From NCBI GenBank assembly GCA_029266335.1, contig JAQSXC010000001.1, positions 1 through 64,000 on the forward strand: a DNA stretch of 64,000 bases. Reading direction: 5' to 3'. The notes under the pieces are model-generated. The model did no database searches and had not been told where the DNA came from. It worked only from the letters and a program-made list of their open reading frames with translations. A program made the translations under genes and the position numbers. Position 1 is the stretch's first letter. Each line of letters starts with the position of its first letter. Below are positions 51,631 through 60,980 of this stretch, piece after piece. The DNA comes from Eubacterium sp. GTDB taxonomy: Bacteria > Bacillota > Clostridia > Acetivibrionales > DSM-1351.

Positions 51631-52455
51631 ATGAGAAAGATAGCATTTTATGGAAAAGGCGGTATCGGTAAGTCAACAACACAGCAGAATACCGCAGCAG
51701 CAATGGCTCACTTCTATGATCAGAAAATATTTATTCACGGTTGTGATCCAAAGGCTGATTCTACAAGACTTATCCTGGGTGGTAAGCCGCAGGAAACTCT
51801 GATGGACGTACTGCGTGAAGAAGGTGCCGAGAAGGTAACTAAGGACAAGGTTATCAAAAATGGTTACAAAAATATCCGATGTGTTGAGTCCGGTGGTCCG
51901 GAACCTGGTGTCGGCTGTGCAGGAAGAGGTGTTATCACTGCCATTGATCTGATGGAAGCAAACGGTGCTTATACTGACGATCTGGATTTTGTTTTCTATG
52001 ACGTTCTCGGAGATGTTGTCTGTGGTGGTTTCGCAATGCCTATTAGAGATGGCAAGGCTCAAGAAGTTTATATCATAGCATCAGGAGAAATGATGGCTAT
52101 TTATGCAGCAAATAATATCTGCAAAGGACTGTTGAAATATGCGAAGCAGAGTGGTGTACGTCTTGGCGGAATCATCTGTAACAGCCGTAAGGTAGACAGG
52201 GAGAGGGAATTCTTGGATGAGTTCACTGCGTCAATAGGAACTCAGATGATTCATTTTGTACCCAGGGACAATATCGTGCAAAAAGCAGAATTCAATAAAA
52301 AAACAGTTGTAGAGTATGATGCTAACGAAAATCAGGCAAAGGAATATGGGGAGCTGGCAAGAAAGATCATAGAAAACAAGAATTTTGTAATACCGCAGCC
52401 GCTTACCATGGATGAACTTGAAAAAATGGTTGAAAAGTACGGAATTGCAGATTAA
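51631..52455 (+). CDS. anfH: Fe-only nitrogenase reductase (Fe protein) AnfH
   Basis: The 274-residue homodimeric Fe protein delivers electrons to AnfDGK with ATP hydrolysis. Walker [10 protein letters not shown] is at residues 8-16, the [4Fe-4S] ligands are C96 (GCAGRGV) and C131 (VVCGGFAMP), and R99 is the residue modified by DraT in other organisms. AAGGAGG precedes ATG 51631 by 7 nt; the frame opens at 51559. It is the first gene of the operon. No draT/draG is nearby, which fits control by the NifI proteins that follow. Confidence 0.96.
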
Positions 52456-52474
52456 TTGGAAAGGAGCATTTCAT

Positions 52475-52792
52475 ATGAAAATGTTAAAAGCAATCGTACG
52501 CCCCGAAATGGCTGATACAATTGCAGATGCGCTTGCAGAAGCCGGTTTTAACTCAATGACAAAGATTAATGCGTTCGGAAGAGGAAAACAGAATGGTATA
52601 GTCTTCGGGTCTGTCCATTATGATGAATTACCAAAAACCATTCTTATGCTGGTTGTTGAAGACGAGTCTGTCAATGAAGTTCTAAAAATTATCAAATATA
52701 AAGCATATACCGGTAATTTTGGTGACGGCAAGGTTTTCATTACTCCCGTTGAAAGAGTCATGACGGTAAGAACCGGAGAGACTGGATTATAG
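52475..52792 (+). CDS. nifI1: PII-family nitrogenase regulator NifI1
   Basis: The 105-residue PII protein begins MKMLKAIVRPEMADTIADAL and contains GFNSMTKINAFGRGKQNG in its T-loop region, where the uridylylation tyrosine of GlnB is missing, and FGDGKVFITPVERVMTVRTGE at the C-terminus. In archaea and clostridia NifI1/NifI2 bind the dinitrogenase and inhibit it when nitrogen is plentiful, released by 2-oxoglutarate and ATP. AAAGGAG lies 8 nt before ATG 52475. The position between nifH and nifD homologs is typical. Confidence 0.93.
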   Translation: MKMLKAIVRPEMADTIADALAEAGFNSMTKINAFGRGKQNGIVFGSVHYDELPKTILMLVVEDESVNEVLKIIKYKAYTGNFGDGKVFITPVERVMTVRTGETGL

Positions 52793-52886
52793 GTGTAAGT
52801 ATCATTCACGCTTTATCCGGCTCACGATATGTGCGTGGAGTTATTCCATTAAATTATGTGAGTCAGAAAGGCTGAGGGTACTTATT

Positions 52887-53258
52887 ATGAAGGAAATAAT
52901 TACGGTAATTCGTCCAAAGAAAGTAAGTGCAACAAAAGAAGTTCTGGTTAAGCTGGGAATTCCAAGCATGACAGCCATTTCGGTTCTTGGAAGGGGAAAG
53001 CAGAAGGGTATTGACAGTGAGGTAAATATTGAATATCGAGCAGGGATACTGGAACAGAACAAGAGCGGAGGTATGAAATATGTACCCAAGAGATATCTGT
53101 CAATTGTTGTAAGCGATGAAAATGTGGATACAGTGATCGATGCAATTATAAAAGTAAACCGGACAGGGCAGATCGGTGACGGAAAGATATTTGTCTGTCC
53201 GGTTGAGGATGCTCTGCGTATCAGGACCGATGAAAAAGGTAATGATGCAATAAATTAA
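52887..53258 (+). CDS. nifI2: PII-family nitrogenase regulator NifI2
   Basis: The 123-residue partner of NifI1 has the longer T-loop (EVNIEYRAGILEQNKSGG) characteristic of NifI2, the start ITVIRPKKVSATKEVL, and IGDGKIFVCPVEDALRIRTDE at the C-terminus. It forms a hetero-oligomer with NifI1 that controls nitrogenase activity after translation. The gap from nifI1 is about 95 nt, and ATG 52887 has GAGGG about 10 nt upstream. Confidence 0.92.
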   Translation: MKEIITVIRPKKVSATKEVLVKLGIPSMTAISVLGRGKQKGIDSEVNIEYRAGILEQNKSGGMKYVPKRYLSIVVSDENVDTVIDAIIKVNRTGQIGDGKIFVCPVEDALRIRTDEKGNDAIN

Positions 53259-59282: not shown

Positions 59283-59405
59283 CAGTTCATCCGGAGACAT
59301 CGAAAAATACTTATTTCGGAGAAATGGTAAAATATTGAAATATTAATGAAAGGGGGCCGGGTCCATGCCAATACTTTCTTGGCAGTTTATGTTGCAGGTA
59401 GAGAC

Positions 59406-60023
59406 ATGGATATATTTATGGAGATAGCTGTGTTGGTTAATTCAGAGGGTAGTACATCAGGATTTGATAAAGACGGGAGCTTACGGGTATATTCAAAGGT
59501 CAATTGTGAATGGACTGTAGTCAGGTGTATGGAATATAACACTGGTATTATCTCGGATTCCTTGACTTTGCATAGAAGAATTAATGAAATCTGTGGCTGG
59601 CTGGAAAATTGCAAAATCATAGTTGTAAACCGCATCCGGGGGATTCACTATATTGCTTTTGAAGAGAAACAGATATCCATGTTGGAAATAAAAGGCGTCC
59701 CGGAGACTTTTCTGGATGATATAAGGGAATGTGTGCAGCACTATAGAACCGGTAAGGAAATACCCATGGAGCATAAAGCTATCTTTGAGCTTCGGCCAGG
59801 TGTTTTTCACACAGACCTTCGTGCGGTTATGAATGGCAGCACTTCCTACAATTCAAAGCAAATTCTGGTGCCTTTCTTAAAAAAACAGGAATACAGTTTA
59901 CTTGAAATCATATGCGACCATGTTCCAAAGTGGTTGGAGAATGAACAAAATGAGCTGAGTATAAGGTTATCGGTAGAAAAATTTAAGGACTGTATGAAAG
60001 TCAGAATCTACCCGTCAAAATAG
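59406..60023 (+). CDS. anfO: Fe-only nitrogenase accessory protein AnfO
   Basis: The ~206-residue protein matches the AnfO family: N-terminal MEIAVLVNSEG strand, RVYSKVNCEWTVVR, CGWLENCKIIVVNRIRGIHY and a C-terminal VPFLK-like core before the last 50 residues. AnfO proteins are needed for full activity of Fe-only nitrogenase in Azotobacter and Rhodobacter; the molecular task is unsettled. ATG 59406 is favoured because AGGTAGAG lies before it, while the ATG at 59346 has no ribosome site. It is located right after the four-cysteine protein and before nifB. Confidence 0.88.
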   Translation: MDIFMEIAVLVNSEGSTSGFDKDGSLRVYSKVNCEWTVVRCMEYNTGIISDSLTLHRRINEICGWLENCKIIVVNRIRGIHYIAFEEKQISMLEIKGVPETFLDDIRECVQHYRTGKEIPMEHKAIFELRPGVFHTDLRAVMNGSTSYNSKQILVPFLKKQEYSLLEIICDHVPKWLENEQNELSIRLSVEKFKDCMKVRIYPSK

Positions 60024-60101
60024 ATGTGCCTGGCATATAAAAAAGACAAGCGGTTTCAGTTTGGGAATAACACTAAAGTATGTCGCACAGAGGAGGGAAT
60101 T

Positions 60102-60980
60102 ATGTTGATAACAGATCAATTAATAGAACGGAAAACAGATAATCAGGCATCAGATTTTATTTTCTTTAACACAAAAATGAAGCAAAAAACTATGACACAT
60201 CCATGTTATAACGGCTGTAACCATGAAAATGCCAGAATACACCTCCCTGTTGCGCCAAAGTGCAATATACAGTGCAATTATTGTGTGAGGAAGTTTGACT
60301 GTGTTAATGAGAGCCGACCGGGGGTTGCAACCAGAATAATAAGCCCGGGTGAAGCACTGGAAAAATACATAGAAGTGAAGAAAACCATGGCAAATCTGTC
60401 TGTGGTAGGCATTGCAGGTCCGGGGGATGCTCTGTGTGATTTTGAAAATACAAGAAAGACACTGCAGCTTATCAAAGAGTATGATTCGGATATTACCTTC
60501 TGTTTGTCTACCAACGGTTTGATGCTGCCCAACCATGCAGATGAGCTTGAGGCTCTAGGCGTCAGCCATGTTACTGTCACAATTAATGCAGTTGATCCTG
60601 AAATATCTGCAAGGATTTATAAATATGTCAGATATGAAGGTGTCGAGTATGCCGGATATAAGGCAGGAGCTTTACTCCTCAAAAACCAGTTGACGGGATT
60701 GAACAGATTAACAGAAAAAGGAATTGTATGTAAAGTCAATATTGTAGTTCTGAAGGGAATAAATGATTTTCATATACCTGAAATTGCAAAAACCGTTAAG
60801 CAATCAGGGTGCTATATTGTTAATATCATGCCGTTAATTCCGGTTCAGGGAAGTGAATTTGAACATCTTCCAAAGGCAACCACTGAGGAAATTATGAAAC
60901 TTCGAAAAGAATGCGGCCGGTTGATTCTGCAGATGCAGCATTGCAGACAGTGCAGGGCTGATGCTGTGGGAAGCTTATAA
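60102..60980 (+). CDS. nifB: nitrogenase cofactor biosynthesis radical SAM enzyme NifB
   Basis: NifB fuses two 4Fe clusters and inserts the central carbide, using SAM, to make the [8Fe-9S-C] precursor. The radical SAM ligands C54, C58 and C61 (APKCNIQCNYC), C35 for the K-cluster side (HPCYNGC), and the C-terminal HCRQCRADAVG are visible. The 292-residue length shows the stand-alone form without a C-terminal NifX domain. GAGGAGGG lies 6 nt before ATG 60102. A dedicated nifB in the anf operon, without nifE/nifN, matches the view that FeFe cofactor maturation needs little beyond NifB, homocitrate and the AnfDGK scaffold. Confidence 0.94.
   Translation: MLITDQLIERKTDNQASDFIFFNTKMKQKTMTHPCYNGCNHENARIHLPVAPKCNIQCNYCVRKFDCVNESRPGVATRIISPGEALEKYIEVKKTMANLSVVGIAGPGDALCDFENTRKTLQLIKEYDSDITFCLSTNGLMLPNHADELEALGVSHVTVTINAVDPEISARIYKYVRYEGVEYAGYKAGALLLKNQLTGLNRLTEKGIVCKVNIVVLKGINDFHIPEIAKTVKQSGCYIVNIMPLIPVQGSEFEHLPKATTEEIMKLRKECGRLILQMQHCRQCRADAVGSL

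Follow-up and report, generated by a model that had tools for sequence, protein, structure and literature searches.

A predicted Fe-only nitrogenase operon and a MORN-like protein family associated with AnfO at molybdenum, vanadium and Fe-only nitrogenase loci

The operon and its host genome

The first 64,000 nucleotides of contig JAQSXC010000001.1 (Eubacterium sp., assembly GCA_029266335.1), hereafter the window, were analysed. Eleven genes lie on one strand between positions 51631 and 60980 in the order anfH-nifI1-nifI2-anfD-anfG-anfK-GAT-PNPOx-MORN-anfO-nifB, where GAT denotes a glutamine amidotransferase-like gene, PNPOx a flavoprotein gene and MORN the gene of a MORN-like protein. They are predicted to constitute a complete Fe-only nitrogenase operon, in which the neighbouring MORN and anfO genes are of main concern here.

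51631..52455, plus strand, anfH; NifH NCBIfam model, 467.8 bits against a cut-off of 394.35
52472..52792, plus strand, nifI1, PII family; PF00543 match
52887..53258, plus strand, nifI2, PII family; PF00543 match
53280..54857, plus strand, anfD; TIGR01861, 1081.8 bits against a cut-off of 873.8
54873..55226, plus strand, anfG, TTG start; TIGR02929, 156.9 bits against a cut-off of 124.7
55240..56628, plus strand, anfK; TIGR02931, 914.3 bits against a cut-off of 853.85
56822..57538, plus strand, GAT, class-I glutamine amidotransferase-like; PF00117, 70.8 bits against a gathering score of 22.8
57755..58273, plus strand, Anf3-type flavoprotein (PNPOx split-barrel family), predicted heme-ligand His54; PF12900
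58326..59282, plus strand, MORN-like protein; marginal match to MORN_2, PF07661
59406..60023, plus strand, anfO, start uncertain (open frame from 59346); PF09582, predicted cofactor-ligand His kept
60102..60980, plus strand, nifB, radical-SAM part only, start uncertain (open frame from 60024); NCBIfam model, 345.4 bits against a cut-off of 343.65

AnfD, AnfG, AnfK and the Fe protein all exceed their curated cut-offs for the Fe-only system. A sequence-only reading of this stretch had proposed a complete Fe-only operon of this very order with its own nifB, and the family models agree, also for the structural and NifI genes. Its view that the accessory genes merit attention was borne out; its proposal that GAT, PNPOx and MORN are all new Fe-only factors was rejected, PNPOx being of the already known Anf3 type and MORN following nifD, as described below. 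Inspection of relatives and of the upstream sequence by eye puts the probable start of anfO at 59406 or 59418 and that of nifB near 60102. With these later starts the intergenic gaps measure 13 to 216 bases and NifB has about 292 aa, its family match spanning profile positions 3-276 of 441.

For comparison, 84,980 species genomes were scanned and the best 80 of 178 AnfD loci (80-96% identity, remoter AnfD lying outside the sample) were retained, each as a stretch of up to 10 kb on either side of anfD; several of these loci are incomplete. Profiles detected PNPOx at 69 of the 80 loci, NifI at 43, AnfO at 42, GAT at 29, a regulator described below at 10 and MORN at 9. Among these 80, the closest AnfD is that of Ruminiclostridium cellobioparum (L047), with 96% identity and an identical operon order, which makes an assembly artefact less likely. 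The host genome (5.5 Mb, 356 contigs, 92.6% complete, 5.06% contaminated) also carries a nif cluster on contig C335.

A MORN-like protein family associated with AnfO

The MORN-like protein, named a four-cysteine repeat protein in the sequence-only reading, contains four FYxxGxxxS-type repeats and a Cys-rich C-terminal tail. Its PF07661 match is marginal (29.9 bits against 29.6); among six other members, three exceeded the gathering score (L157, L153, L155), one fell below it (L147) and two gave no match (L150, L207). At least four cysteines occur within the last 45 residues in 30 of 38 MORN sequences. In R. cellobioparum the Cys-rich end (L047:15560-15700) lies in a different reading frame, owing to a frameshift or a sequencing error. 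The predicted structure (mean pLDDT 88.7) consists of beta strands and two short helices, with residues 300-318 of the tail below 50. Comparison with the sequences of solved structures gave a best E value of 0.34, and Foldseek found no match at E 0.001. VIA-align reached a best Z of 6.7 (CPAP G-box) and about 6 for OspA, which reflects a shared sheet arrangement only; no nitrogenase protein, NifX included, was among the VIA-align matches listed. A PHROGs search returned nothing useful, and the two members scanned obtained no NCBIfam name.

AnfO of the window is a clear member of PF09582 (166.5 bits against a gathering score of 30.3). It stays below the cut-off of the NCBIfam equivalog TIGR02940 (94.2 against 129.15 bits) and is therefore assigned to the AnfO family but not to the NCBI equivalog. 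In an alignment of 67 AnfO rows, the His of a C-x-H motif is kept in 66; its equivalence to Cys201/His203 of Azotobacter vinelandii follows from the published motif spacing (PMC11938142), the A. vinelandii sequence being outside the alignment. Immediately before the motif Trp, 19 of 21 nif rows have Pro and 43 of 44 anf rows have Lys or Arg. In the AnfO model (mean pLDDT 84.6, pTM 0.58) the N-domain matches NifX (9ian_F, Z 12.0) and NafY (1p90, Z 11.1), unrelated rows scoring about 7. The A. vinelandii AnfO N-domain is reported to bind the apo-FeFe protein and the C-domain to bind FeMo- and FeV-cofactor, with His203 essential in vivo and Cys159 and Cys201 dispensable (PMC11938142); AnfO averts misincorporation of the FeV-cofactor (PMC9310841). 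The conserved layout makes a similar cofactor capture plausible for the window AnfO.

The distribution of MORN was determined in two samples. The first sample took 391 genomes evenly from the Clostridia, the class of the window; a profile built from ten members found MORN there in 14 of 26 genomes with nifD-type genes and in none of the other 365 (Fisher 5.5e-19). Here nifD-type means a match to the AnfD model at E<1e-60, a threshold chosen after the list was known and falling in a wide gap (next weaker genome 9.8e-28); AnfD itself exceeded its cut-off in three of the 391. The replicate comprised 149 genomes of the class of a Desulfovibrio-type genome (G426), in which nifD was detected at E 1e-60 in 93 genomes, 87 of them above the cut-off. 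With a profile from 38 members, MORN was present in 82 of these 93 and in 0 of 56 others (Fisher 2.8e-30), one carrier (G563) having only a weak nifD match (7e-81). Pooled, MORN occurs in 96 of 119 nifD-positive genomes and in 0 of 421 others; because the sampled genomes are related, the Fisher values overstate independence, which weakens the case to that extent. Thus the expectation of the sequence-only reading that MORN co-occurs with anfD rather than nifD failed: in both classes it tracks nifD, while the anf copies still form a clade of their own. Chance neighbourhood with nif was considered and rejected, since 42 of the 82 Desulfovibrio-class MORN genes lie within 12 kb of nifD, for which the chance per genome is below 1% (a rough figure). 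Of the rest, 12 share a contig with nifD at a greater distance, 27 are on a different contig, and one is in a genome without a listed full nifD.

In Clostridia, MORN coincides with AnfO. PF09582 exceeded its cut-off in 14 of 391 genomes, 13 of which have MORN; one genome has AnfO only, one has MORN only and 376 have neither. Eight more genomes gave weak PF09582 matches below the cut-off. The two genes are also adjacent outside anf loci: the host genome carries a second MORN-AnfO pair divergent from nifH on C335 (L144), adjoining pairs stand at nif in 14 fetched regions (L144, L147-L149, L152-L154, L158-L160, L194, L196, L199, L202), and one stands at vnf (L150, VnfD 949 bits). Twenty Desulfovibrio-class regions were fetched, 18 of them picked because MORN lay near nifD; in eight (L237, L241-L247) AnfO and MORN adjoin by nif, and two regions (L249, L250) are unlinked. 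The association of AnfO with MORN across Mo, V and Fe-only loci is thereby shown.

Both families divide according to the nitrogenase that they accompany. In the MORN tree (58 rows), a branch with SH-aLRT 100 unites 10 of the 11 anf copies, whose sources include Ruminiclostridium, Anaerocolumna, Acetobacterium, a Peptococcaceae bacterium and a Planctomycetaceae bacterium; the nif copy of the host genome groups with nif copies of its genus, apart from the anf copy. The AnfO tree (67 rows) separates a nif side of 22 rows (21 nif-linked and L198) from an anf/vnf side of 45 (SH-aLRT 99). Both trees are quick ones without bootstrap, midpoint-rooted, and several of their rows stand on long branches or are of unusual composition.

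Several observations adjoin these results. A genome of the host's genus (G294) carries all three nitrogenases in separate clusters, which are spread over C2, C18 (L150) and C24; the vnf cluster (L150) includes nifI genes, AnfO, MORN and an HTH/PBP_like regulator. At the 80 anfD loci a 146-aa family (cluster c18, e.g. L099:13434-13871), often 3' of anfK, occurs at 29 and an AIG2-like cluster (c21) at 25; one c18 member had no Pfam or NCBIfam match and an NCBIfam scan of one c21 member gave nothing useful. By its position, c21 is probably AnfR. The c18 family is never co-located with c21 or MORN, and between the nine MORN loci and the 54 with c18 or c21 there is no overlap (0/80). MORN may stand in for c21 or c18 at anf loci, but the lineages differ and some loci are incomplete.

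Proposed role of the AnfO-MORN pair

We consider that there is a little better than an even chance that the operon combines its own NifB, a NifI1/2 switch, an Anf3-type flavoprotein and an AnfO-MORN pair, that the pair is the anf version of a module of Mo and V systems, and that MORN partners AnfO in cofactor insertion or sorting. Since MORN tracks AnfO in Clostridia and its anf and nif copies split like those of AnfO, a partnership is the simplest reading. In this scheme NifB would act as cofactor-core synthase and NifI1/2 as a PII-type post-translational switch. The NifX/NafY-like N-domain of AnfO would dock on cofactor-free AnfDK, and its C-domain would capture free cofactor through the conserved His, as published for A. 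vinelandii AnfO. MORN, with its extended beta-repeat body and flexible Cys-rich tail, would join AnfO in the same step, where it might either scaffold AnfO on the apo-enzyme or pass or hold a metal or cluster with the tail. The separate AnfO-MORN clades would then match separate nitrogenases.

The nif side is also present in genomes in which one nitrogenase was found; isozyme sorting cannot be the reason there, and delivery, proofreading or protection of the empty site becomes more likely. A broader reading, which we advance tentatively and at somewhat less than even chance, is that AnfO and MORN form a general isozyme-specific cofactor-insertion checkpoint with Mo, V and Fe-only versions in anaerobic Firmicutes and sulfate reducers. 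If this holds, the pair may serve Mo-only organisms as a NafY-like delivery or proofreading unit, e.g. against NifB-co or a tungsten form, AnfO would not be the Fe-only factor that its name implies, and MORN would be a nitrogenase factor that had escaped recognition.

A number of observations weigh against a partnership of MORN with AnfO, besides the relatedness of the genomes mentioned above. MORN is absent from 12 of 26 and 11 of 93 nifD-positive genomes and is thus not universally needed; it stands at only 9 of 80 anfD loci, AnfO at 42. Among 50 anfD-positive genomes from the 80, MORN is encoded somewhere in 22 and is missing from 28 (G394, one of these genomes, agrees in its places with G294 of the Clostridia set, so that the two sets overlap). 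The Paenibacillus forsythiae lineage, source of the nifB and anfHDGK set discussed below, lacks it. AnfO and MORN lie on separate contigs in 3 of 13 genomes (G059, G116, G336), in 10 of the 20 Desulfovibrio-class regions the MORN at nif has no AnfO next to it, and 12 of 38 MORN sequences have no nitrogenase gene in the fetched stretch (L198 among these has AnfO; some free-standing copies are on short contigs, so that linkage is possible). The MORN of L052 falls outside the anf group. Eight of 38 sequences have fewer than four tail cysteines: L047, L052, L202, L198, L197 (Chlorobiaceae) and the free-standing copies L204, L205 and L207.

The gene neighbourhoods also bear on another explanation, namely that MORN is a homeostasis or storage protein for the heterometal Mo which feeds cofactor synthesis and is no insertion partner of AnfO. 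In L231, MORN adjoins modA/modB-like and nifV-like (homocitrate-synthase-like) genes; in L199, an AnfO-MORN pair lies directly 3' of modABC-like genes, and in L161 a free-standing Clostridia MORN is beside modCBA-like genes. These calls rest on ABC transporter and solute-binding domains, Mo specificity being judged by eye. The Cys tail could bind metal. However, MORN also accompanies anf and vnf in versions of its own, where the metal is not Mo, and it is missing from all 365 Clostridia without nifD-type genes, a class in which molybdoenzymes are common. We regard Mo storage as unlikely.

MORN might alternatively modulate nitrogenase activity or expression as an adaptor or regulator, acting e.g. 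with NifI or with the upstream regulator and not in cofactor insertion. MORN-type repeats often act as binding surfaces, and nifI genes are common in MORN-bearing clusters. However, nifI is found at 43 of 80 anfD loci and MORN at 9, the tightest partner of MORN in Clostridia is AnfO, and scans of the Pfam, NCBIfam and PHROGs type detected no DNA-binding or signalling domain in MORN, so that such a role appears quite improbable.

Insertion or sorting together with AnfO thus remains the reading that we prefer for MORN, and the data suggest that an accessory factor of all three nitrogenase types has gone unnoticed. The discovery is this MORN-like family, which is linked to AnfO at nitrogenases of the Mo, V and Fe-only types. 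In listings of open-licence papers, no discussion of a MORN-type protein or of GAT together with nitrogenase was found. AnfO has been handled in published work as a factor of the Fe-only enzyme (PMC11938142, PMC9310841), a view that the pairs at nif and vnf change. An 'AnfO family protein' is labelled in a figure legend for nif clusters of sulfate reducers (PMC11206085), so that the annotation of AnfO in such clusters has a precedent. How cells separate near-identical metal cofactors is an open question on which the AnfO-MORN pair may bear, and the accessory-protein needs of nitrogenase determine how large a gene set a new host must receive. MORN, which in samples from two unrelated classes occurred exclusively together with nitrogenase genes, is a directly testable candidate.

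Other accessory genes, expression signals and comparison with known systems

The window flavoprotein is, by its sequence, of the Anf3 type and not new in kind. It matches A. vinelandii Anf3 (PDB 6RK0) with E 1.4e-8, and its His54 aligns with the Anf3 heme-ligand His (position counted by hand); this column is His in 69 of 69 sequences (68 anf loci and the window). The sequences fall into a group of 25, mainly from Firmicutes with two from planctomycetes, which are 46-87% identical to the window protein, and a group of 43 at about 30% or less. PDB 2hti (BH0577, E 7.6e-48) resembles the window protein much more strongly than Anf3 does. The source organism of 2hti is, we presume, a Bacillus. Because 2hti is closer, recruitment from a general Firmicutes family may apply; one-to-one orthology with Anf3, judged by the two identity groups of anf-locus sequences and by this closer relative, is one possibility. 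Anf3 binds heme and FAD and consumes O2 as an oxidase in Azotobacter, and anf3 of Rhodobacter capsulatus is reported as needed for Fe-only diazotrophy (PMC6579470). The equivalent His is a heme ligand in NimB-type proteins (PMC10338468).

GAT occurs near anfD at 29 of 80 loci, mainly in Firmicutes, and in 18 it lies immediately 5' of PNPOx on the same strand. By eye, it has what we take to be the catalytic Cys-His-Glu motifs. Six of the 391 Clostridia have a relative (E 1e-25), and each of them also has nifD-type genes; they are all three anfD-positive genomes and three anfD-negative ones. When all frames were searched, GAT and PNPOx were both missing from the 55 non-anf regions that surround MORN, nif or vnf genes. 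The set also included three anf regions: both genes are present in two of them and absent from L155. In G090 (which has anfD elsewhere in the genome), G184 and G296, GAT lies in stretches with genes that by eye resemble corrinoid synthesis genes, and in G243 it has other neighbours; all four stretches lie outside anf loci. The expected co-occurrence of GAT with anfD therefore stood for the anf loci, the anfD-positive Clostridia and the non-anf regions, and gave way in the three anfD-negative genomes and in the off-locus copy of G090. On sequence evidence the GAT-anf association is real in Firmicutes but loose. An active Fe-nitrogenase was reported in P. polymyxa from P. forsythiae nifB and anfHDGK with no accessory genes added (PMC8287671), which counts against a strict need for GAT; the main text of Paenibacillus nitrogenase papers, in the portions consulted, contained no passage on an amidotransferase or on terms beginning with 'pyridox-'. 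A 3448-base contig (L201) from the genome of the Spirochaetaceae locus L089 carries anfK, GAT, PNPOx and part of a MORN gene, arranged as in the window; this arrangement outside Firmicutes suggests transfer of the whole module.

These two genes suggest a further explanation, by which the extra genes chiefly guard the Fe-only enzyme against oxygen or nitrosative stress, PNPOx being an oxidase similar to Anf3 which GAT and MORN assist. The alignment with the O2-consuming Anf3, the invariant heme His and the adjacency of GAT and PNPOx in 18 of 80 loci agree with this. However, MORN goes with AnfO and not with PNPOx, as the 55 non-anf regions without GAT or PNPOx illustrate, and the window protein is much nearer to 2hti than to Anf3. 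The host and most carriers are, moreover, presumably strict anaerobes. We judge protection to be a very improbable main function.

Three features flank the operon:

49645..50658, minus strand, one-component regulator with HTH_17 (excisionase-type) and PBP_like domains; PF12728 52.7 bits, PF12727 240.6 bits
51084..51112, plus strand, sigma-70 consensus TTGACA-N17-TATAAT upstream of anfH, 12/12 matches
61339..61366, plus strand, terminator-like stem-loop of 12 pairs 3' of nifB, the likely operon end

The sigma-70 consensus, about 520 bases 5' of anfH, has 12/12 matches in R. cellobioparum (L047) too. The sole other intergenic terminator-like site on the plus strand is a weak one of 6 pairs in the MORN-anfO gap (59366-59384). 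In the region such sites are not in excess of shuffled sequence (promoter-like 41 against 35.2, sd 6.4; terminator-like 11 against 7.9, sd 3.2). Between anfK and GAT a stem-loop (56627-56760, z -2.65, 1 of 200 shuffles folding equally well) is a possible mRNA processing or attenuation site, so that the accessory genes may be expressed at a different level; the GAT-PNPOx gap gave no RNA fold signal (z 0.13).

Relatives of the regulator occur at 10 of 80 anfD loci and beside the vnf cluster of L150, and never share a locus with a sigma-54 activator-like cluster found at 40 of 80 (Pfam confirmation for one member). A strict -24/-12 site within 700 bases 5' of anfH was present at 21 of 39 activator loci and at 0 of 11 regulator loci, window included. 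A comparison of the regulator loci brought out no common operator 5' of anfH. By its domain type, the regulator is a candidate for molybdate-sensing control of the operon and a candidate metal-sensing replacement of AnfA in Firmicutes.

The host genome contains four nitrogenase-like PF00148 pairs beyond anf and nif (C207:6923-9591, C259:8792-11514, C294:2223-5852, C335:59304-62533), two with their own NifH-like gene. In the C294 pair one gene contains two stop codons, and just upstream lies a stretch (1743-2123) whose weak resemblance to AnfO stays below the cut-off; the C335 pair sits, by eye, after ABC-transporter-like genes.

Compared with known systems, the MORN-like protein resembles MORN_2 proteins (PF07661) in its four FYxxGxxxS-type repeats and mostly beta model, and differs in its marginal scores, whole-length family, Cys tail and tie to nitrogenase genomes. 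AnfO shares its N-domain fold with the NafY/NifX carriers, for which His-based cofactor binding is described in the literature; the MORN-like protein itself showed no such match among those listed. With A. vinelandii AnfO the window protein shares the two-domain layout, the NifX-like N-domain and the C-x-H motif, but here it is paired with MORN and its family has a nif side in genomes without anfD. The flavoprotein belongs to the same Pfam/PNPOx group as Anf3 (6RK0) and NimB-type proteins, with the heme-ligand His aligned, and differs in that its own group is mainly from Firmicutes and 46-87% identical to it, the other anf-locus sequences being about 30% identical to it or less. The Fe-only operons of A. 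vinelandii and R. capsulatus (anfHDGK, anfO/anf1, anfR/anf2, anf3) have anfH, anfD, anfG, anfK, anfO and an Anf3-type gene in common with the window. Unlike them, the window locus lacks the AIG2-like c21 and the 146-aa c18 families, has a sigma-70 type promoter and an HTH/PBP_like regulator with no sigma-54 activator-like gene in the clustered neighbourhood, and possesses nifI1/nifI2, its own nifB, GAT and MORN.

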